A stretch of 20,858 nt of DNA from a virus. The notes below the pieces were generated by a model. The model had not been told where the DNA came from. It searched no databases and saw only the letters and a list, made by a program, of their open reading frames with translations. The stretch covers positions 1 through 20,858 of the IMG/VR virus record IMGVR_UViG_3300030328_002443; one strand, 5' to 3'. A program made the translations under genes and the position numbers. The first letter of the stretch is position 1. Each line of letters begins with the position of its first letter. Shown here piece after piece: positions 3,629-20,858 of this stretch.

Positions 3629-3936
3629 TATGTTATATCCATTTTTAAAATTTCACCGTCAATCATTCTTGGTATTTTTATATAATCTCCCGCTGAATCC
3701 ATAAAATCCACTCTAAATACTTTGTTGATATCAACAGAAGATCCCGTATCTGATAAATCATACCACATTTGGTCTGCTACTGTTGTTGCTTTTGCATACT
3801 CTACTTTTGTTCTATAAAGACCCGCTTCTAATAAAGCGTCATTTATTAGATTATATAAATAATTATCTGGTGCTTCAGGAAAAGTTTGTCTTATCCTACT
3901 TATAATATTTTTAACAGTTAATCTTCTGACAGCCAT
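3628..3936 (-). CDS. Putative head-tail connector-like protein
   Basis: This is a 102-aa protein starting MAVRRLTVKNII. A TTG six codons upstream could extend it, but that TTG overlaps the GGGAGG that serves as ribosome-binding site for the internal ATG. The ATG at 3936 also forms a one-base TAATG overlap with the preceding stop, so the shorter start is chosen. The N-terminal half is helical ('NIISRIRQTFPEAPDNYLYNLINDALLEAG'; in two pieces, ISRIRQTFPEAP and NYLYNLINDALLEAG), followed by a beta-rich part ending 'IDGEILKMDIT'. The fold and position between capsid and fibre suggest a neck or connector protein. This is inference. Confidence 0.6.
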   Translation of the reverse strand: MAVRRLTVKNIISRIRQTFPEAPDNYLYNLINDALLEAGLYRTKVEYAKATTVADQMWYDLSDTGSSVDINKVFRVDFMDSAGDYIKIPRMIDGEILKMDIT

Positions 3937-4139
3937 TAATCTAAATCCTCCCAATTAATTTGTTGTATAGAATCCCAATTACCCCCACTTAACAATTCTG
4001 CTGCTTCGTTCCATTTATTACCAACTAAATCAAAATCTGTAGAAGTCGTTAACGATGTTTCAGAAAACGATGTACTACCTGTTAATGTTACTTCCGTAAA
4101 AGATGTACTAGTTGTTAGTGTTGTACTTGTAAATGCCAT
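3936..4139 (-). CDS. Small Thr/Ser-repeat protein of the tail gene block
   Basis: This 67-aa protein begins with three near-identical decapeptide-like repeats: TLTTSTSFTE, VTLTGSTSFS, ETSLTTSTDF. The Trp-containing C-terminus reads 'NKWNEAAELL...NWDSIQQINWEDLD'. It is coupled at both ends by TAATG overlaps, to the 255-aa gene upstream and the 102-aa gene downstream. That coupling argues that it is a real gene despite its low complexity. I do not recognise its family. A small virion part or linker peptide is possible; the acidic Trp-rich tail may be a docking segment. Confidence 0.6.
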   Translation of the reverse strand: MAFTSTTLTTSTSFTEVTLTGSTSFSETSLTTSTDFDLVGNKWNEAAELLSGGNWDSIQQINWEDLD

Positions 4140-5868: not shown

Positions 5869-7236
5869 CTAATTACCTTCTAGGTTATAGAGAGCATGGG
5901 ATTCTGGTAAAGAAACCTCAAGACCTGCTTCTGTAAGAATCATATCCTTACGCAAGTCTTCATCAGCACTCTGAACATTAGTTTCAATTTGTGTGTCACG
6001 ATTAATACCGTTACCAACTAATGGACGATAAGATACTTTGCCCATATCGACAATCGCCATGAAACCACTTGCGATACCACGGAAAAGTGGTTCCTTCACA
6101 ATGTGAAGGTCGCCATGTATTGTTTCAAGGTTCATAACTTTATGACCAAAAGCACCATCTCTTTGCTCCATTGGAGCATTTAGTTGAATTTGGGTACTAG
6201 CTGTAGACACATCAAGAAATCCGCCATCACCAACTTTATTAAGTTGAGAGATAACAGGAAGACTTGCTAAACATAACTTTTCAGAAGAGCCTCCTCTTGC
6301 AGGATCAAAAATAACTTCAAGATCGCTTAGGAATCTGTCATAAGTGAGCTCTGCCGTTGTCGATGTACGATAGTATGGTGCTCCAGAACTGTAAGAAAAC
6401 GCTGAATTATCAGCGGTTGGATTAGCATTTTTTACAATGTGTCCAACTATTCCTTCAGTATACTGAATACCTGATACACGAGCACGCTGCCCAAATAGCA
6501 TTGCACGCTCGATATCTACTTTATGTTCACGAAGTTTAAGAGCCCAAATCCTATCCCACTCATTAGCGTATCCACGATAACGAGTAGCATAAGCTGTGTT
6601 TGACATTTCTGCAGCAGTCTTAAAGATTTGAGTATAACCGAAGTCATCTTCAATATCATTTGACCATGCATCTGGTGACCCTGTTCCTTCTGCAAATGCG
6701 GTACCAATTACTTGACACTCATCATTATCAGCAAGAACATTGTATCCACTAACATTAGAGTTTGATACATCGATAATCATACCAGTAAACGAAGAATCTG
6801 AACCATTATCAGTTACAGCACTGTTCACTCTTACGAGTGTTTGTGCATAGCCAGCATTACTGTCGACTGTTTTAACTGCAATGACCATTCCCTTTGTTAA
6901 CCAATCAACACTAGCTGAACCAGTGTCTACGGTAAATGAGTATGTTGTACCAGCACTAACAGCAGAACCACCATTAACAGCAGCCGCCAGATAGAAACTT
7001 CTTGTTGTCCAATCAATCTTAGAACGATTTTCTAAGAAACGGAAAACAGGATCATCTGTTGGTGCTTTCGCTACTTGAGATAAGTAAACGAAAAATGGAG
7101 ATTCTTCAGGCGTAAGCTCAGATACCCGATCAGAAAAGTCGTATAACCTTCTTAAATCAGGAGCTTGTCCTACACCAGCACTAGTGGTAGCGGCAGTAAT
7201 ATCGCTAGATTTTTTTACTCCCGTTGTATAAGCCAT
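5869..7236 (-). CDS. Major capsid protein, SU10/DUF5309-like
   Basis: This 455-aa protein is preceded by a strong AAAGGAGG site, 8 bp from the ATG, as expected for the most abundant virion protein. It carries features I associate with the SU10-type capsid family (DUF5309): N-terminal 'DLRRLYDFSDRVSELTPEESPFF', central 'YTQIFKTAAEMSNTAYAT', 'KVDIERAMLFGQRA', and C-terminal 'GDLHIVKEPLF' followed by 'VDMGKVSYRPL'. About 90 residues between 90 and 180 form a beta-rich insertion (Gly, Ser and Thr rich) that could be a surface domain. Position after portal and scaffold, and before decoration, is canonical. It should assemble into an HK97-fold shell. Confidence 0.88.
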   Translation of the reverse strand: MAYTTGVKKSSDITAATTSAGVGQAPDLRRLYDFSDRVSELTPEESPFFVYLSQVAKAPTDDPVFRFLENRSKIDWTTRSFYLAAAVNGGSAVSAGTTYSFTVDTGSASVDWLTKGMVIAVKTVDSNAGYAQTLVRVNSAVTDNGSDSSFTGMIIDVSNSNVSGYNVLADNDECQVIGTAFAEGTGSPDAWSNDIEDDFGYTQIFKTAAEMSNTAYATRYRGYANEWDRIWALKLREHKVDIERAMLFGQRARVSGIQYTEGIVGHIVKNANPTADNSAFSYSSGAPYYRTSTTAELTYDRFLSDLEVIFDPARGGSSEKLCLASLPVISQLNKVGDGGFLDVSTASTQIQLNAPMEQRDGAFGHKVMNLETIHGDLHIVKEPLFRGIASGFMAIVDMGKVSYRPLVGNGINRDTQIETNVQSADEDLRKDMILTEAGLEVSLPESHALYNLEGN

Positions 7237-8068: not shown

Positions 8069-10081
8069 CTAGGCTTTTAGAGCTTGACTGAGGCGATCTG
8101 CTTCACGCCTTAATCTCTCTGCTTCGAGCTTTACCTTATTTTGCATTTTGTTGGATTCAACCCTTCTATCTGCTTTAGCATCTGCTACGACATCATTTAG
8201 CTTTGTTTTAGCTTTTTCAACCTCTACACGCTTTCTGTCGCTAACAGATTCTCTTCTAGCAGTTTGCAAGTCCCCTTGCAAATCTTTTACCTGTCCTTGT
8301 AAACCTTGAATTTGTTGCATCATTTGTTGCTTTTCATCCATTCTAGCCAATATTCCTTCCTTGTCGAAAATCTCTGGGTTTTTCTTTAAGACTTCAATTC
8401 TGTCTACAAGACCCATTTGATACGCTTCTAGGTATACTCCTAACTCAGCCCACTTGCTTGTTGGCAAAGTTGAACCAGGTTCAATTCTTATATCATGTTG
8501 GTCAAGCTTATAACGATCTTTTGCAATATCTAAAACTGGACCTGTTTTGTCATCATATAAATTTATCGTTGCTTCGCTTAAATTATTATTTGGTTGTGCA
8601 ATTCTAAACATTTTTTGAAATGTGTAGTGCCCTTTTGCATAATTGTATAAAACTTTTCCAAGTCTATTTATGCTAAATTCTATATCTCTTAATTTAGACT
8701 TAGGTCTTTCTTGCCCTAAAGCCATCATTCTTTCTGTTCCCCTAACTGTTTCAGGTGCTTTTTCTGCAAATCCGTGCATCATCTCAGGTAAACCAAATAT
8801 GAAATCTATATAAAATTCACATTGTTGAATTAATTTATAAAACTCTCCTGCAAGGGGTTGGGGCGCTGGAAAGTGCGGTTCTCCTTGAGAAGAGTCTACT
8901 TCTATAACAGCGTTAGGGTTAGCCCAATCTTTTTCTAATTGATTTAAATCTTCTACGCTTCCTAATGGAACTAGTAATTTTAAACCTGCCGATGCTTGTG
9001 CGTGCGACAAAGCAAGTGACCATACTTTATTTAAAAGCCTTTGCATGGGTCTAGCTCTAGATACATCAGACTTAGGATACGGACTTTCTGTCCAAACATT
9101 AGGCATTGGAACTATTGGATACATATCCGTATTTAATACAGATTCATATAATACTATCTCACCTAAAGTTGCACAAACCTTAACTCTGTTTTGTGGAACT
9201 TCTACAATTTGCACAACACCATTTTCTATAATTTCTGTATTTTCTTCCATATAACGCTTTATATCAAGCTCGTCAAAAACAAATTCTTCGCCTGTGCCCG
9301 TATTTAATACTCTATAGAATGGCACTTTAGTTTTATAATATCGTTCTAAAATTTGATATTTTCTATATTCAAACTGATCTAAATATTGTGTTTCAGCAGG
9401 TGTGTTAACAGACATTGAGTTTTTATTTTGCGTAGTTGGATAATCTTCTTCTCTATAAGCAGAAACCCTATCAATTAAAGGTGTTAAGCTTTCTCCTGTT
9501 TCAGGGTCTTCCGATATATTAAGCTCAGGGTAGAGGGCGATTACCTGTTCTCCAGTTAATATAGTAGACAATAAGATGCTCTCTGCGTCCCCAAACCATC
9601 TATCTCTAGATGATGGAGGAACATACACCCTAAAAGGATTAACATTTGTGAACTTAACATCGCCCCTACCGAAATCAGCTTCTGTATCAATATAAACATA
9701 TAAATAACCTAATCCTGATATTGCGTAGTCATGAATTGCTTGTTTCATATGAGCGTCGCCACCTGATATATCCCATACATAACCCAGTATAGTTCTCCAC
9801 ACACTAGATATCTTTACATCAGATTCTTCTCTAGGTGTTATTGTAAATACTGGTGGTCTTGAAGTTAAGGTTGCTTTTAATTTTTCCACAGCAGGAGATA
9901 TCCTATCCATCGGAACATCAGCTTGATTTCGTGTTTTTAACTCATCAGATTCTGATGCTGTAAAATGATTTCCTAAGTAAAAATCAATATCTTTTCGTGC
10001 CTCAGTGTCCCATTCTGATCGTGCATCACGCCATCGCCTATAAAGATCTCTATTATAATCTGCTCTAGGATCTGATTCCAT
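8069..10081 (-). CDS. Portal protein (P22-like)
   Basis: This 670-aa protein is large, like P22-type portals. N-terminal 'WDTEARKDIDFYLGNHFT', then 'MDRISPAVEKLKATLTSRPP', 'HDYAISGLGYLYVYIDTEADFG' (given as HDYAISGLGY and YVYIDTEADFG), 'NPFRVYVPP' and 'LSTILTGEQVI' are typical portal signatures. Later 'GLPEMMHG' and 'RGTERMMALGQ' fit the family wing/stem region. The last 100 residues are a long charged coiled coil ('QQMMQQIQGLQGQVKDLQ', then KAKTKLNDVV and a basic tail), comparable to a barrel helix. It starts immediately after the upstream stop (TAA then ATG). It forms the dodecameric DNA entry ring at the capsid vertex. Confidence 0.9.
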   Translation of the reverse strand: MESDPRADYNRDLYRRWRDARSEWDTEARKDIDFYLGNHFTASESDELKTRNQADVPMDRISPAVEKLKATLTSRPPVFTITPREESDVKISSVWRTILGYVWDISGGDAHMKQAIHDYAISGLGYLYVYIDTEADFGRGDVKFTNVNPFRVYVPPSSRDRWFGDAESILLSTILTGEQVIALYPELNISEDPETGESLTPLIDRVSAYREEDYPTTQNKNSMSVNTPAETQYLDQFEYRKYQILERYYKTKVPFYRVLNTGTGEEFVFDELDIKRYMEENTEIIENGVVQIVEVPQNRVKVCATLGEIVLYESVLNTDMYPIVPMPNVWTESPYPKSDVSRARPMQRLLNKVWSLALSHAQASAGLKLLVPLGSVEDLNQLEKDWANPNAVIEVDSSQGEPHFPAPQPLAGEFYKLIQQCEFYIDFIFGLPEMMHGFAEKAPETVRGTERMMALGQERPKSKLRDIEFSINRLGKVLYNYAKGHYTFQKMFRIAQPNNNLSEATINLYDDKTGPVLDIAKDRYKLDQHDIRIEPGSTLPTSKWAELGVYLEAYQMGLVDRIEVLKKNPEIFDKEGILARMDEKQQMMQQIQGLQGQVKDLQGDLQTARRESVSDRKRVEVEKAKTKLNDVVADAKADRRVESNKMQNKVKLEAERLRREADRLSQALKA

Positions 10082-12115: not shown

Positions 12116-12507
12116 TATTCTTTTATTTCAAAGTGTACTAAGTCGTCAAATTTATTATCTTTGGTTTGGGTATCCTGATTCCAGTCGCCGCCCCATCTTA
12201 TATTAAGTCCCATTTGTTTAGCAATCCCAAGAACATACCCACCAAAATAGTGAAACCTATCCCGATCTGACCAATCCACAGGGTAAGGTGCAACATCAAC
12301 AGCGATACTTGGCATTTTATTATGCTTACCTTTTGGAAATTTAAGCTTACTATTGCCTTTTCTATACGCTTCGTTTTGTTTTTCTTTACCACGATGACCC
12401 TCTATAATAGTACAATCAAAACCTTTGACCACTTGCTTAAAAAGGTCTTGCAACCTGTCATCACAGGTACCCAGTCTTGATTTACTTCTAGTTCCGAATC
12501 TTGGCAT
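12115..12507 (-). CDS. Endolysin, M15-family peptidase
   Basis: This 130-aa protein matches small phage peptidases of the VanY / L-alanyl-D-glutamate endopeptidase type that cut peptidoglycan cross-links for lysis. Visible motifs are 'IIEGHRGKEKQNEAY' (residues 34-48), the zinc-ligand block 'KHNKMPSIAVDVAPYPVDW' (His62 and Asp71), 'IRWGGDW' (103-109), and the C-terminal 'DLVHFEI' with the third ligand His125. The length is normal for a single-domain enzyme. There is no signal peptide, so a holin would be needed to reach the cell wall. Its stop overlaps the next start by one base. Confidence 0.92.
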   Translation of the reverse strand: MPRFGTRSKSRLGTCDDRLQDLFKQVVKGFDCTIIEGHRGKEKQNEAYRKGNSKLKFPKGKHNKMPSIAVDVAPYPVDWSDRDRFHYFGGYVLGIAKQMGLNIRWGGDWNQDTQTKDNKFDDLVHFEIKE

Positions 12508-16576: not shown

Positions 16577-16672
16577 TTATTGTCTCCATTATGTGTATAC
16601 TAAGTTAAAAACAAAAAAACTTATGAATCAATAGTCTTTTTTTTATTAAAAATATTAATAAAACTTGCCTAT

Positions 16673-16712
16673 ATACTATATATATATAATATACTATATA
16701 TATATAATATAC
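16673..16712. repeat. AT-only 18-bp tandem repeat
   Basis: The unit ATACTATATATATATAAT occurs twice exactly (16673-16690 and 16691-16708), and a partial third copy ATAC follows. It lies in a longer stretch with almost no G or C, and just upstream of pyrimidine-rich tracts and DnaA-box matches. It could act as a DNA-unwinding element or as an iteron-like protein-binding repeat. Confidence 0.8.
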
Positions 16713-16746
16713 AATAATAATATTATATAATATTTTTATATATATA

Positions 16747-16795
16747 CTTTCTTTTTCTTTCTTTTATGTTACTTTTCTTTCTTTTTCTTTTTTTT
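16747..16795 (+). repeat. Duplicated polypyrimidine tracts
   Basis: Two C/T-only runs, 16747-16765 and 16772-16795, are built of CTTT and CTTTTT units and separated by ATGTTA. They read as an imperfect direct repeat. The opposite strand is purine-only. Such tracts can be single-strand-prone, triplex-forming, or binding sites. Here they lie between the AT repeat and the DnaA-box cluster. Confidence 0.65.
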
Positions 16796-16810
16796 ATGCA
16801 AAATAGAGAC

Positions 16811-16852
16811 TTATCCACAAGTTTTACACATATAATTAACAAGTTTTCCACA
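16811..16852 (+). other. Candidate replication origin: three phased DnaA-box matches
   Basis: TTATCCACA (16811-16819) is the strong consensus DnaA box. TTTTACACA (16822-16830) and TTTTCCACA (16844-16852) both fit the relaxed consensus TTWTNCACA. All three have the same orientation, with starts 11 and 22 bp apart, about one and two helical turns. The second and third share a longer direct repeat, CAAGTTTT.CACA. They lie next to an AT-rich repeat at the point where the two transcription arms diverge. Box identity and spacing are seen; origin function is inferred. Confidence 0.65.
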
Positions 16853-17065
16853 ATATTAAAAAATATAGCGCACTACACTTGATCACTAAAACCTATTAAA
16901 TTGCTTAAAATAAGATATTTAGGTCAGAGACACGCAAAATTTTCTTAAAAAAAATTTCACAAAAAATTATGGGATTATGTCTATCTCTCTTTTATTTATT
17001 GGGGGCACGGGTCGAAATTGGAATTAGGAATCCAAAAAGGGGTTGAGTTTTCGGATGTGGTTCGC

Positions 17066-17103
17066 CTTAGATTTTTAGGTATCTAAGCTCCCACACCTAA
17101 AAA
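17066..17103. other. Overlapping, mutually exclusive inverted repeats
   Basis: CTTAGAT (17066-17072) pairs with ATCTAAG (17081-17087), an 8-nt loop. TTTTTAGGT (17072-17080) pairs with ACCTAAAAA (17095-17103), a 9-bp stem with a 14-nt loop. The two hairpins share bases, so only one can form at a time. Neither is followed by a U-tract in the right orientation, so a terminator is unlikely. The segment lies upstream of the mapped promoter, so it may act as DNA (operator) unless another promoter transcribes it. Confidence 0.5.
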
Positions 17104-17127
17104 AATAAGGAAAATCCTGGTTTATGC

Positions 17128-17321: not shown

Positions 17322-17525
17322 ATGACTATAACATACACTATAACAAAGACTAAGCGACCAAGTGGAGCGCTTATTAAAATGGAAGTAACGGAAAGCAACG
17401 AGGAAATAACATACATTGTAACTAACTCTAAAAACTTTGATACAAGGTACTATTATACTTATAGCGAAGCCGTTAATCATTATAATAATCTAGTAATAAA
17501 AGAAAACAAGGAAGGTAAACAATGA
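17322..17525 (+). CDS. Hypothetical small early protein (67 aa)
   Basis: This is the first gene of the rightward operon. The start MTITYTITKTKRPSG is chosen because GAGG lies 8 bp before this ATG; an upstream in-frame TTG would overlap the promoter -10 box and precede the transcript start. The protein is soluble with alternating beta-like segments ('ITYIVTNSKNF', 'RYYYTYSEAVNHYNNLV') and a charged C-terminus. No family is recognised. Its TGA overlaps the next ATG (ATGA), so the two are probably coupled. Early placement suggests a host-takeover or regulatory role, which is only a guess. Confidence 0.7.
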   Translation: MTITYTITKTKRPSGALIKMEVTESNEEITYIVTNSKNFDTRYYYTYSEAVNHYNNLVIKENKEGKQ

Positions 17526-18124
17526 ATCTATTGACGCAGAATAGTAAAATAAAAAAGACAGCCAAGCATTTTAATGTGCGCCTGTTTAATTTCTCAATTC
17601 CTGCCTATAAATCTAAAGCGGGGATGATTACCTGTCCAATGGCTGACACCTGTATAAAATTCTGTTATGCTAGAAAAGGTATGTATAAAATGGCTAGTAA
17701 ATGGAGCGAATTAAAGCTTGAGGCAAGTTTAAAAAATGACTTTGTACAGGCTATGAATCAGGATATAAAAGATAAGAAAGCGGAATATGTTAGAGTGCAT
17801 GATTCAGGCGATTATTACAGCAAACAATATCTTTTAAAATGGTTCCAAATTGCTGAGGATAATCCTGAAGTTAAATTTTATTCTTACACGAATAATATTA
17901 CCATGATTAAAGCGCTGAAATATATTCCGATTAACTTCGATTTTATATTTTCGGATAGTGGCAAGCAAAACAAATTCATTGACAAAAAAACGGATAGGCA
18001 TACGAAAATATTTGAGAGCCTTGAGGCACTGAAAAAAGCCAATTATACGGATAGCTCGGAATTTGATTTATACGCTACAAGGTGGCACAATCCGACAAAT
18101 AATGTTGGTTTGGTCATACACTAA
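17522..18124 (+). CDS. Gp88-like phage protein with N-terminal cysteine cluster
   Basis: This 200-aa protein resembles the phage 'gene product 88' group: 'NSKIKKTAKHFNV', a cysteine cluster 'CPMADTCIKFCYARKG' (Cys38, Cys44, Cys48), then 'YVRVHDSGDYYSKQYLLKW' (89-107) and 'EVKFYSYTN'. The biochemical function of this group is not known to me; the cysteines suggest metal or Fe-S binding. It starts with a GAAGGTAAAC leader that overlaps the previous stop. The C-terminus 'NNVGLVIH' ends 2 bp before the first hammerhead ribozyme begins, and I cannot tell whether it is complete compared with relatives. Confidence 0.7.
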   Translation: MNLLTQNSKIKKTAKHFNVRLFNFSIPAYKSKAGMITCPMADTCIKFCYARKGMYKMASKWSELKLEASLKNDFVQAMNQDIKDKKAEYVRVHDSGDYYSKQYLLKWFQIAEDNPEVKFYSYTNNITMIKALKYIPINFDFIFSDSGKQNKFIDKKTDRHTKIFESLEALKKANYTDSSEFDLYATRWHNPTNNVGLVIH

Positions 18125-18126
18125 GC

Positions 18127-18190
18127 AACCTAACTGATGAGCCTATAAAGGGCGAAACAGGGGCGTTAAATTGCGTCCCTGTCTTAGGTT
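18127..18190 (+). ncRNA. Type I hammerhead ribozyme (copy 1)
   Basis: All hammerhead elements are present. Stem I is AACCUAA (18127-18133) with UUAGGUU (18184-18190), 7 bp. The core CUGAUGA is at 18134-18140. Stem II is GCC/GGC (18141-18143, 18151-18153). GAAA is at 18154-18157. Stem III is CAGGGGCG/CGUCCCUG (18158-18165, 18174-18181) with one G-U pair, plus the A15.1-U16.1 closing pair (18157-18182). The cleavage base is C18183, giving GUC before UUAGG. Stem I is the open stem, hence type I. Predicted cleavage is between 18183 and 18184, leaving a 24-nt leader with AAAGG before the next ATG. The upstream stop codon is 2 bp from stem I. Hammerhead activity is known for such cores; activity here is untested. 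Confidence 0.93.
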
Positions 18191-18207
18191 AAAAAGAAAG
18201 GTAAACA

Positions 18208-18420
18208 ATGAATCTTGTAATGGATAGAAAAAAAAGAATTTATGACTCAAGTTATAAGTGCTACGGCGAATTTGTTAGGGTTTTAGGTGGTTATAAGTTT
18301 TATAAAAAATGGCTTAAAAATACTATGTTAAAATCTCAATTAAGAAAAAAAGATAACATAGGAAGGAATGACCCTTGCCATTGTGGAAGCGGTAAGAAAT
18401 TTAAAAAATGTTGTATGTAG
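18208..18420 (+). CDS. SEC-C motif zinc protein
   Basis: This 70-aa protein has a basic N-terminal part ('[14 protein letters not shown]', '[12 protein letters not shown]') and ends with a textbook SEC-C motif: '[18 protein letters not shown]' (52-69), with Cys57, Cys59, Cys68 and Cys69 as zinc ligands. This motif is best known from the SecA C-terminus, where it binds zinc and SecB, and it also occurs in many small standalone proteins. Here it may mediate contact with host protein, ribosome or nucleic acid (inference). It is the first gene inside the ribozyme-bounded block, with an AAAGGTAAACA leader. Confidence 0.85.
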
Positions 18421-18448
18421 TTTTAACAATAAAAAAGGAAGGTAAACA

Positions 18449-18640
18449 ATGATTAAAAGCATCCGACAATTAACGGATTTACAACTTACCTTGGTTATGT
18501 ACGGCGTTATTAAATACCCTATAGAATTTAGGGCGCAATGCGAGGATGAAATAAAGAGACGAACAAAGGCAGAAGGTAGGCAAAATTTTATTAACGCTCC
18601 TCAAGATCGCTTGAGGGCAGACATCAAAAAAGGAGAGTAA
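18449..18640 (+). CDS. Hypothetical small early protein (63 aa)
   Basis: This is a short helical protein. The N-terminal 'SIRQLTDLQLTLVMYGVIKYP' (SIRQLTDLQLTLV then MYGVIKYP) is followed by a charged 'RAQCEDEIKRRTKAEGRQ' and 'RLRADIKKGE'. It has a GGAAGG leader identical in layout to its neighbours (GGTAAACAATG). No family is recognised. The next gene begins 3 bp after its stop, with the ribosome-binding site embedded in its final codons. Confidence 0.7.
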   Translation: MIKSIRQLTDLQLTLVMYGVIKYPIEFRAQCEDEIKRRTKAEGRQNFINAPQDRLRADIKKGE

Positions 18641-18643
18641 ATA

Positions 18644-18799
18644 ATGGCACAAATTACAACTTGTGAAGCGTGTGATATGGTCGTTGACCATTCATCCGAT
18701 GAACGCAGATATTACCCTTATGAAGTAATTGATGAGGAATATTTTTGCATCGATTGTTATAAGGAAATTTTTATAGAACCAAACGAGGAGAGCAAATAA
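18644..18799 (+). CDS. Small CxxC zinc-ribbon protein (51 aa)
   Basis: This 51-aa acidic protein has two CxxC pairs (Cys7/Cys10 'CEAC' and Cys35/Cys38 'CIDC') 25 residues apart, enough to bind one zinc. The stretch between reads 'HSSDERRYYPYEVIDEEYF'. GGAGAG precedes the ATG. Its TAA overlaps the next ATG (TAATG). Tiny treble-clef or ribbon proteins are frequent in phage early regions, often as host-interaction factors, but a specific role cannot be assigned. Its unbroken frame and good ribosome-binding site support it as real. Confidence 0.75.
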   Translation: MAQITTCEACDMVVDHSSDERRYYPYEVIDEEYFCIDCYKEIFIEPNEESK

Positions 18800-19107
18800 T
18801 GATAATAAATAAAAAACTATACTGCGATTGGTGCGGATTTGAGGACGAAGGTGCGCAAATCGGTAATTGGCACAGGAGCCACGCAGATGACTTGTGTTGC
18901 CCTAAGTGCATCGATGAGGCAAATAATAGGACATTGCCCTTGAGAGGCTTAGAGGATATTTACCGCCTTAATCAAGAAGAAGCAACTCAAATGCTGATGA
19001 CTATAGCAACTTCATATCTTGGTAATAATTTTCGTTTAAGGGAAGGCGTAAATACAAGGCTTGAGGGATTAAACAATATCTTAATTCAAATCAGGAGAAA
19101 CGCATGA
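18799..19107 (+). CDS. Small zinc-finger protein (102 aa)
   Basis: Cysteines form 'CDWC' (9-12) and 'CCPKC' (33-37), with His25 and His28 between in 'WHRSHADD', so a single zinc site is likely. The rest is helical: 'LEDIYRLNQEEATQMLMTIA' and 'VNTRLEGLNNILIQIRRNA'. It resembles the preceding 51-aa protein in its N-terminal CxxC layout, and the two may be related. It begins with a TAATG overlap after GAGGAG and ends with ATGA overlapping the next gene. Role unknown; binding to nucleic acid or host protein is possible. Confidence 0.78.
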   Translation: MIINKKLYCDWCGFEDEGAQIGNWHRSHADDLCCPKCIDEANNRTLPLRGLEDIYRLNQEEATQMLMTIATSYLGNNFRLREGVNTRLEGLNNILIQIRRNA

Positions 19108-19196
19108 GAGATAAATTCAGATTATTTCAAGAGTTTATAACGCTTGTATTTATTGTGAGCGTATGGCTATTTTTCATGATATTCTTTAACTTATAG
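19104..19196 (+). CDS. Tiny membrane peptide (30 aa)
   Basis: This 30-residue frame reads MRDKFRLFQEF and then a hydrophobic helix 'ITLVFIVSVWLFFMIFFNL' that fills the rest. It starts with ATGA overlapping the previous stop, and AGGAG lies 6 bp upstream. It is therefore likely translated and inserted in the inner membrane with the charged N-terminus inside. The function is unknown. Its shortness lowers confidence. Confidence 0.55.
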   Translation: MRDKFRLFQEFITLVFIVSVWLFFMIFFNL

Positions 19197-19207
19197 ATGA
19201 GGTGGAT

Positions 19208-19375
19208 ATGAGTACCAATTATTGGGAAAAGGACGATTTTGAACACTTTTTGAGGTTCCTAGCCGATGAAGAGGGCTATACTGCTAATGCAATTATCAAT
19301 GTAGTGGCAGAGCCGTACAAATGGGAAAAGGATTACCAAGAGTGGATAATTAAAGAAGCTCAAGAACCTAACTGA
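19208..19375 (+). CDS. Small conserved-type protein ending in the ribozyme core (55 aa)
   Basis: This 55-aa acidic protein begins MSTNYWEKDDFEHFLRFL and continues 'ADEEGYTANAIINVVAEPYKW', given in two parts: ADEEGYTANAI and INVVAEPYKW. It has a GAGG site 5 bp before the ATG. I recall small phage proteins with 'GY..NAI..VV..P.KW', but no named family. The last codons 'EPN' plus TGA are also stem I and part of the CUGAUGA core of the second hammerhead ribozyme, so a ribosome finishing this gene sits on the ribozyme. Confidence 0.72.
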   Translation: MSTNYWEKDDFEHFLRFLADEEGYTANAIINVVAEPYKWEKDYQEWIIKEAQEPN

Positions 19376-19425
19376 TGATTCCTGAATGGATGAAAACAGG
19401 GCATAGTTTTGCCCTGTTATTAGGT
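19366..19425 (+). ncRNA. Type I hammerhead ribozyme (copy 2)
   Basis: Stem I is ACCUAA (19366-19371) with UUAGGU (19420-19425), 6 bp. The core CUGAUGA is at 19372-19378. Stem II is short, UCC/GGA (19380-19382, 19388-19390), with a U-U mismatch at its base and loop UGAAU. GAAA is at 19392-19395. Stem III is ACAGGGCA/UGCCCUGU (19396-19403, 19410-19417), 8 perfect bp, plus the A15.1-U16.1 pair (19395-19418). The cleavage base is A19419 (UUA), allowed by the H17 rule. Predicted cleavage is between 19419 and 19420, leaving a 29-nt leader to the next ATG. The weak stem II base and the A at the cleavage site may make it slower than copy 1. Confidence 0.88.
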
Positions 19426-19448
19426 AAATATAGAAAGGAAAACCTATC

Positions 19449-19610
19449 ATGAAAAAAACACTAGAAAGAGGTAGCGCATCATTGAATATCTCACTAAGTA
19501 AAGGTATGATAATAATGCGACACGGAAGCGATAACACATTGCTTCATAAAAGGAAATGTCCTAAAGGTGATTGGGATAAACTTTGTAAATTTTTAAGAAA
19601 GGAAAAGTAG
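19449..19610 (+). CDS. Hypothetical small early protein (53 aa)
   Basis: This is a basic 53-aa protein: MKKTLERGSASLNISLSKGM, then 'IIMRHGSDNTLLHKRKCPKGDW' (two parts: IIMRHGSDNTLL and HKRKCPKGDW), ending 'LCKFLRKEK'. AGAAAGGA lies about 10 bp before the ATG. It is the first gene after the second ribozyme, and the next gene starts 2 bp after its stop. No family is recognised. An overlapping minus-strand frame is treated as a shadow. Confidence 0.62.
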   Translation: MKKTLERGSASLNISLSKGMIIMRHGSDNTLLHKRKCPKGDWDKLCKFLRKEK

Positions 19611-20071: not shown

Positions 20072-20858
20072 TGACTAAGGTATTTAGTATGTTTTCAGGC
20101 ATTGGTGGCTTCGAGGTGGGGCTACTAATGTCTGAAAAGGATGTAAAGCTTGTCGGCTTCTCTGAGGTCGACAAGTATGCAATTGAGATATTTGAAAAAC
20201 AATTTAAAGGAATTAAGAATTATGGAAACGCAACAACAATCAATGAATCTGAATTACCAGACTTCGACTTGCTCGTTGGGGGATTTCCTTGCCAAGCTTT
20301 CAGCGTTGCAGGAAAACGGAAAGGATTTGAAGACACAAGAGGTACGCTCTTTTTTGATGTCGCAAGGATTCTCTCCCACAAAAAACCCAAACATTTTATA
20401 CTCGAAAATGTTAAAGGTTTACTTTCTCATGACTCTGGAAGAACTTTCCAGACAATCCTTAAAGTTCTCGCCGACATTGGGTATATGGTGCAATGGCAGG
20501 TACTCAATAGTAAAAATTTCGGAGTCCCACAGAATAGGGAACGAGTGTATATTGTCGGACATCTTAGAGGAAGAAGTCGACCAGAAGTATTTCCTATCGG
20601 AGAAGTCAACTCAGAAAATAATAAACTCAACAAGCCCAAGGAAATAACCAAAGATATGTCGATGGCATATCGAGTATATGATACAGATGGATTATCAACC
20701 ACTTTACGAGCTGTTGGTGGTGGTGTTGGTGCGAAAACAGGATTGTATCAAGTTGGTGTAGAGGTTCGAGCCTGTTTGACTCCAGACAGATTGGAGAAGA
20801 GGCAGAATGGTCGTAGGTTTAAAGATCACGAGGAGCCGATGTTCACTTTAACTAGTCA
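20071..20858 (+). CDS. DNA (cytosine-5) methyltransferase, 3' end outside window
   Basis: The visible 262 codons are an uninterrupted C5 methyltransferase. Motif I is 'FSGIGGFEVGL' (8-18), for AdoMet binding. Motif IV is 'GGFPCQAFS' (70-78) with catalytic Cys74. Motif VI is ENV (112-114). Motif VIII is 'QNRERVYIV' (154-162). The start of the target-recognition region follows, with 'DTDGLSTTLRAVGGGVG' and 'RACLTPDRLEKRQNG'. The C-terminal motifs IX-X lie past the edge. Phage enzymes of this class usually protect phage DNA from host restriction; the target sequence cannot be read from this. It starts with a one-base TAATG overlap after the 152-aa gene. No cognate nuclease is visible in the window. 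Confidence 0.95.
   Translation, partial: MTKVFSMFSGIGGFEVGLLMSEKDVKLVGFSEVDKYAIEIFEKQFKGIKNYGNATTINESELPDFDLLVGGFPCQAFSVAGKRKGFEDTRGTLFFDVARILSHKKPKHFILENVKGLLSHDSGRTFQTILKVLADIGYMVQWQVLNSKNFGVPQNRERVYIVGHLRGRSRPEVFPIGEVNSENNKLNKPKEITKDMSMAYRVYDTDGLSTTLRAVGGGVGAKTGLYQVGVEVRACLTPDRLEKRQNGRRFKDHEEPMFTLTS

Follow-up and report, generated by a model that had tools for sequence, protein, structure and literature searches.

The segment at positions 18127–18190 of the viral record IMGVR_UViG_3300030328_002443 raises the question of whether a short element lodged between two genes of a bacterial virus is a self-cleaving RNA and, if so, what it does for the operon around it. An earlier note on the window (the whole stretch of DNA analysed here, 20,858 nucleotides) had read it as an intact type I hammerhead ribozyme, with its core residues, helices and GUC cleavage site in the right order, following a gp88-like gene and predicted to cut 24 nt before the start codon of a SEC-C gene. 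Our analysis bore out each of these points and revealed a second hammerhead, absent from that note, 1.2 kb downstream. Both elements (hereafter HH1 and HH2) sit between genes of one operon, and we consider it probable that they are cis-acting ribozymes by which a polycistronic transcript, probably an early one, is processed where genes meet. The features concerned are the following.

17522–18124 (+): GP88-family gene (PF17338, Pfam E = 2e-30), ending 2 nt 5′ of HH1
18127–18190 (+): HH1, a complete type I hammerhead ribozyme (sequence, fold and covariance model R1, E = 1.8e-14)
18127–18133 (+): 5′ strand of HH1 stem I, AACCTAA, containing an in-ribozyme UAA and pairing with 18184–18190
18134–18140 (+): HH1 core CUGAUGA, C3 to A9 (sequence)
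18141–18153 (+): HH1 stem-loop II, GCCUAUAAAGGGC (sequence, fold)
18154–18156 (+): HH1 core GAA, G12 to A14 (sequence)
18157–18182 (+): HH1 stem-loop III, 10 bp with a 6-nt loop (fold), which cleavage would leave at the 3′ end of the upstream mRNA
18183–18184 (+): predicted HH1 cleavage site, C17 (18183) / U (18184), triplet GUC (hammerhead rules)
18184–18190 (+): 3′ strand of HH1 stem I, UUAGGUU, the predicted 5′ end of the downstream product (sequence, fold)
18197–18201 (+): AAAGG Shine-Dalgarno sequence, 6 nt 5′ of the SEC-C AUG, predicted to be mostly unpaired before and after cleavage (accessibility prediction)
18208–18420 (+): small gene encoding a SEC-C motif at the C terminus (PF02810, E = 1e-9), the first after the HH1 cut
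18184–19419 (+): 1236-nt RNA that both predicted cuts would release, with six small ORFs (predicted cuts, ORF list)
19202–19375 (+): ORF whose UGA stop (19373–19375) forms part of the HH2 CUGAUGA core (ORF list)
19366–19425 (+): HH2, a type I hammerhead in the operon of HH1, on the same strand and sharing its stem I CCUAA/UUAGG (core pattern, repeat search, R1 E = 2.3e-9)
19419–19420 (+): predicted HH2 cleavage site, A17 (19419) / U (19420), triplet UUA (hammerhead rules)
19434–19439 (+): AAAGGA Shine-Dalgarno sequence 5′ of the AUG at 19449, with a predicted post-cleavage leader of 29 nt (sequence)
19449–19610 (+): small ORF, the first after the HH2 cut (ORF list)

The letters of HH1 run, in order, AACCTAA (stem I), CTGATGA, GCCTATAAAGGGC (stem II), GAA, ACAGGGGCGTTAAATTGCGTCCCTGT (stem III), C17 and TTAGGTT. 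Stem III, with strands ACAGGGGCG and CGTCCCTGT, opens with the A15.1-U16.1 pair, stem I is an open helix, and the minimum free energy structure from RNAfold is exactly the three-helix hammerhead (−27.2 kcal/mol, z = −3.83). HH2, recovered both by a simple core pattern and by a repeat search (family D4), reads ACCTAA, CTGATGA, TTCCTGAATGGAT, GAA, AACAGGGCATAGTTTTGCCCTGTT, A and TTAGGT; its weak points are a U-U mismatch that closes stem II and UUA, a less favoured cleavage triplet. Both elements have the type I residues C3-U-G-A-N-G-A9, G12-A-A14, A15.1-U16.1 and H17 in order, as well as the type I topology of three helices round the core with helix I open to the flanks. Cleavage of HH1 would give a 3′ product whose first nucleotide is 18184 and whose leader, 24 nt long, retains AAAGG ahead of the AUG at 18208.

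A loose hammerhead descriptor matched twice in the window, compared with a single match when the window was shuffled 150 times with its dinucleotides preserved. The covariance model R1, built from 33 gapless 52-nt relatives in other phages with no window sequence included, scored HH1 at 50.3 bits (E = 1.8e-14) and HH2 at 35.1 bits (E = 2.3e-9), with the next best match in the window at E = 0.4. R1 also matched a hammerhead (44112–44035, − strand), immediately 3′ of the orf67 stop, in PaP3, a phage whose hammerhead had been assayed in the study of Perreault et al. 2011 (PMC3088659); with no R1 match on Bcep176, PaP3 is the sole positive control. The check with the Rfam hammerhead type I model that the earlier note had put forward would by itself have missed HH1: no RF00163 Hammerhead_1 match was listed for the window, and the other Rfam hammerhead models remained below their cut-offs on HH1 (HH9, 18.5 of 52 bits; RAGATH-1-hammerhead, 23.5 of 56.3 bits). 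Likewise, an Rfam search at gathering score or E 1 over 17 sampled loci brought none of their type I copies to gathering score, but did recover type II copies in locus L072.

Relatives were sought in viral contigs by two scans, the first with the core and stem I and the second with the core and a G-C stem II, leaving stem I free, followed by a structure filter. This yielded at least 267 hammerheads, at least 229 of them distinct, in at least 174 sequences (173 fetched loci, designated by L-numbers, plus the window), while the reversed-sequence control of the scans gave zero hammerheads. Since the pairing filter is circular, tests were confined to stems on which the search pattern had placed no demand. 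A stem III of 5 bp or longer was present in 110 of the 138 viral matches listed but in only one of 61 same-pattern matches in bacterial and archaeal genomes, and with the stem II pattern fixed, stems I and III were both present in 76 of the 115 matches listed. Copies were almost absent from cellular genomes. Across the 33 sequences from which R1 was built, 99.8% of pair cells were paired, a figure inflated by selection for pairing, and both-sided changes occurred in 13 of 16 pairs, with a covariation score of 0.772 compared with 0.148 after shuffling and at most 0.110 with slid partners. Compensatory changes among relatives were present in all three helices, and loop II was mostly U-N-A-N-U among the matches listed. 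Also among the matches listed, all multi-copy loci (56/56) had every copy on one strand, at a median spacing of 642 nt. In 30 whole viral records, R1 matched at E 0.001 in 25, with up to seven matches per record; 33 phage loci (160 kb) fetched by their SEC-C gene, and thus not chosen for ribozymes, contained no copies. The hammerhead motif is small and the Rfam cut-offs are missed, which is what a chance resemblance rather than a ribozyme would look like; however, the R1 E-values, the occurrence of two copies in one operon, the empty reversed-sequence control and the covariation in relatives make such a resemblance extremely improbable.

Across phages, these elements lie in a defined register between a stop codon and the next start. 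Among the 229 listed copies, the stop of an upstream ORF of at least 40 codons fell between −12 and +11 of C3 in 199, compared with 11.8% of random positions drawn from the same loci and strand, and a Shine-Dalgarno-like site with a start codon (ORF of at least 30 codons) lay within 60 nt past the cut in 169, compared with 17.6%. Both were present in 154 of these copies versus 2.5% of random positions, and the cut mostly fell 20–45 nt before the next start. Stops occupied discrete registers, namely the UAA in stem I (−3), the core UGA (+1), loop II (+11) and positions just 5′ of stem I (−8, −9), of which the −3 class is biased by the search pattern in the first set and unbiased in the second. 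In 198 of the 229 listed copies, two or more reading frames have a stop between −9 and +14 of C3.

The junction downstream of GP88 could be followed across relatives. Counterparts of HH1 lie directly after GP88 in L002 (where GP88 is 89% identical), L051, L069/L114, L041 and L341. All three helices can form in the window copy and these five relatives, with stem III rewritten in each; L341 has CCUAU/AUAGG in place of CCUAA/UUAGG as stem I, stems II and III differ throughout, and the core is kept in five of the six copies. The compensatory changes to which the earlier note had looked as a check are therefore present, and the pattern that it had named as a refutation, stem pairing lost in relatives as the core drifts, is the opposite of what was observed. 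A shifted stem I register was preferred by RNAfold in three relatives, a caveat for energy-based prediction, and in L001–L003 the core G5 at the GP88 junction is replaced by A with the stems intact. Single core mutants with their stems kept, at 3611 in L001–L003 (G5A) and at ∼4775 (−) in L051 (C3U), each occur in a relative of the window that also has an intact copy. In L004/L005, the ribozyme is absent after GP88 and the next gene starts after 20 nt; the DNA of that gene is 96.9% identical to the gene after the L002 ribozyme, where the gap is 83 nt, and L004/L005 and L002 are thus a natural with/without pair. Most homologous junctions that at first seemed to have lost the ribozyme proved to have variants lying just outside the descriptor, and L133 was the only junction truly lacking a ribozyme in the homologous-junction test, with a plain 10-bp hairpin (6539–6609, −) where its relative L134 has a hammerhead. 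In L079 (∼3900–3995) and L111 (∼8255–8343), hammerhead variants have one extra base between A9 and stem II at junctions where relatives have the standard form.

GP88-family genes (PF17338), at 22–88% identity, were seen beside type I hammerheads in the window (17522–18124), L041, L017, L051, L069, L104, L213 and others. GP88-like ORFs occurred in 29 of the 228 ribozyme-fetched loci listed (28 of them among the 173 loci where a hammerhead was confirmed), compared with 0 of 33 SEC-C-fetched loci. However, only 4 of 80 loci fetched by GP88 carried a hammerhead, which rules out GP88 as a universal ribozyme partner; the association is probably lineage co-occurrence. For the ORF at 19202–19375 that flanks HH2, a search for relatives found none, and a search of the operon DNA for relatives among isolated phages returned a single 63-base match and nothing more.

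Hammerhead cleavage chemistry is established in general, and from it we infer cleavage at both sites and the ends of the products. In the processing that we propose, each ribozyme would fold behind the last ribosome to translate the upstream gene, immediately past its stop codon, and the cut would be made co-transcriptionally, as RNA polymerase passes. The upstream mRNA would then end with the stem III hairpin and a 2′,3′-cyclic phosphate, and the downstream mRNA would begin with a 5′-OH and a leader of 24–29 nt in which the ribosome-binding site is kept. The stem III hairpin would hinder 3′ exonucleases, and a 5′-OH end is no substrate for 5′-monophosphate-sensing decay; the likely benefit would be separate, differently stable mRNAs for neighbouring genes, and any such effect on stability or expression is conjecture. 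The predicted accessibility of the Shine-Dalgarno sequence changes little from before to after cleavage (0.78 to 0.84 for HH1, 0.40 to 0.51 for HH2), which makes processing more likely than a translational on/off switch that works by hiding this sequence, and we rejected the latter. Against processing, we count the G5-to-A core of L001–L003, the shifted stem I registers, the U-U mismatch and UUA triplet of HH2, and L004/L005, which indicate that a homologous junction can do without a ribozyme.

The element could instead be kept mainly as a strong 3′ hairpin, acting as a terminator or exonuclease block, or as a spacer, with catalysis incidental: stem III is stable in nearly all listed copies (median −10.3 kcal/mol), the homologous junction of L133 has an ordinary hairpin instead of a ribozyme, and some core mutants, such as those of L002 and L051, keep their stems. 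However, an intrinsic terminator can be discarded, given that CUUAGG or AUUAGG, and no U-run, comes after stem III and that a terminator scan of the + strand found none at HH1 or HH2. Moreover, the core and cleavage triplet have no hairpin function, and a hairpin of purely structural role is not expected to keep the core. Among copies not used for fetching, 48 cores were intact and only three were single core mutants with intact stems (G5A, C3U, U4C), which indicates selection on the catalytic core and not just on a hairpin; a fourth core mutant (A14C, L142) was a chance-like match, and the reversed control gave two mutated and no intact cores. We therefore regard the hairpin or spacer explanation as unlikely. 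It also seems unlikely that the elements are a selfish or recombination-driven intergenic cassette, one that duplication and homologous recombination would have spread while the phage gained little from it. Such a cassette would suit the near-identical copies that single operons contain (L041, L059, L072), presence and absence at one junction next to a 97% identical downstream gene, and the shuffled gene order in relatives of the window, but not the strict stop/start register, the conserved core and the retention of the ribozyme at orthologous junctions despite large divergence of all stems.

Two hammerheads on one strand could instead excise the RNA between them for ligation into a circle, which would be a circular mRNA or resemble a retrozyme or viroid. 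The 5′ UUAGGUU left by HH1 would pair with AACCUAA of HH2, which would then run in reverse, or an RtcB-type ligase would join the ends. The two copies of the window would give a hybrid stem I of 7 bp without a mismatch, and a hammerhead fold is predicted for their joined ends; the predicted product ends (5′-OH and 2′,3′-cyclic phosphate) are ligatable, and a hybrid stem I of at least 4 bp was found in 49 of 89 adjacent listed pairs compared with 23% of random pairs. However, much of this excess is explained by local duplication, 31 of the 89 adjacent listed pairs reach at most 2 bp, so that their ends cannot pair, and the RNA between the cuts is ordinary coding sequence. In addition, the 2011 study sought circular or spliced products of such clusters and found none (PMC3088659). 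Excision to a circle is thus very unlikely overall, and its specific form, in which either HH2 or an RtcB-like ligase would close the 1236-nt six-gene RNA to make a polycistronic mRNA circular, is highly improbable even though the full complementarity between AACCUAA of HH2 and the newly made 5′ end UUAGGUU suggested it.

Processing of the operon at gene boundaries, the reading we prefer, agrees with what has been described for prophages. Perreault et al. 2011 described prophage genes flanked by multiple hammerheads (types I, II and III), proposed that long transcripts are processed into operon- or gene-length mRNAs, and reported that the clustered hammerheads are active in vitro, with the triple set of A. 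tumefaciens cleaving in E. coli (PMC3088659). As in those clusters, closely spaced hammerheads here flank single genes or short blocks in phage-derived DNA, and HH1 and HH2 are two same-strand hammerheads flanking genes of a phage operon, which places them with the gene-junction clusters of that study (PMC3088659). The earlier note had called a type I form inside a phage operon unusual; this was not supported, as phage and prophage forms of types I, II and III are already published (PMC3088659, PMC7761336) and at least 229 distinct copies were found here. Some members of the type I group of the window may be in the supplementary alignments of the 2011 paper (PMC3088659). Its main text contains neither "stop codon" nor "Shine-Dalgarno" (PMC3088659), and the register is measured here over at least 229 copies; the novelty of this register is not certain. 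A 2023 paper found bacterial hammerheads enriched near Mu-like phage genes and other ribozymes, and called the reason unknown (PMC10085705).

Among Rfam families, RF00163 Hammerhead_1 and RF02275 Hammerhead_HH9 share the core and type I topology with the present group, and the best sub-threshold matches are those to relatives in L213 (RF00163, 30 of 34 bits; RF02275, 23 of 52 bits), but stem I is here an open helix of 5–7 bp and loop II is mostly U-N-A-N-U. RF03152 RAGATH-1-hammerhead, which gave HH1 its best bit score, shares the core and a similar stem I (ucuua/uaaga compared with ccuaa/uuagg), but HH1 matches only model positions 26–77 and has no counterpart to the 5′ third of the model. 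Retrozymes and viroid-like circular RNAs likewise have two hammerheads on one strand and circularisation-compatible ends (PMC7761336), whereas the window is a coding phage operon with no retroelement sign.

The kind of element is therefore already known, and what is added here is the phage of the window with its two copies, the exact register, a large group that scores below Rfam cut-offs and the with/without pair. The results also show that a sizeable group of phage ribozymes escapes Rfam at its present cut-offs. Together, the register, the selected core, the mixed type I/II junctions and the with/without pair give clustered hammerheads a concrete, testable job, proposed to be the protein-free cutting of phage operons into single-gene mRNAs. 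The mixed junctions are those of L072 (3091–5251, +), where type II (Rfam 52–60 bits) and type I hammerheads occur at successive junctions of one operon, so that the cut, and not one particular RNA, seems to be what is kept.

L072 also has a glutamine riboswitch match at 12245–12338 (−). In the window, a PreQ1-riboswitch-like RNA (RF00522, 25.4 bits against a cut-off of 39) was seen at 17051–17114 (+), in the leader upstream of the operon. Divergent gene blocks flank an AT-rich region at 16600–17000, in which a perfect DnaA-box-like sequence, TTATCCACA, lies at ∼16812 and a second, TTTTCCACA, is also present; this region may be a replication origin. At the other end, a frame at 20072–20858 (+) that runs off the window resembles, as judged by eye, a cytosine-5 DNA methyltransferase.
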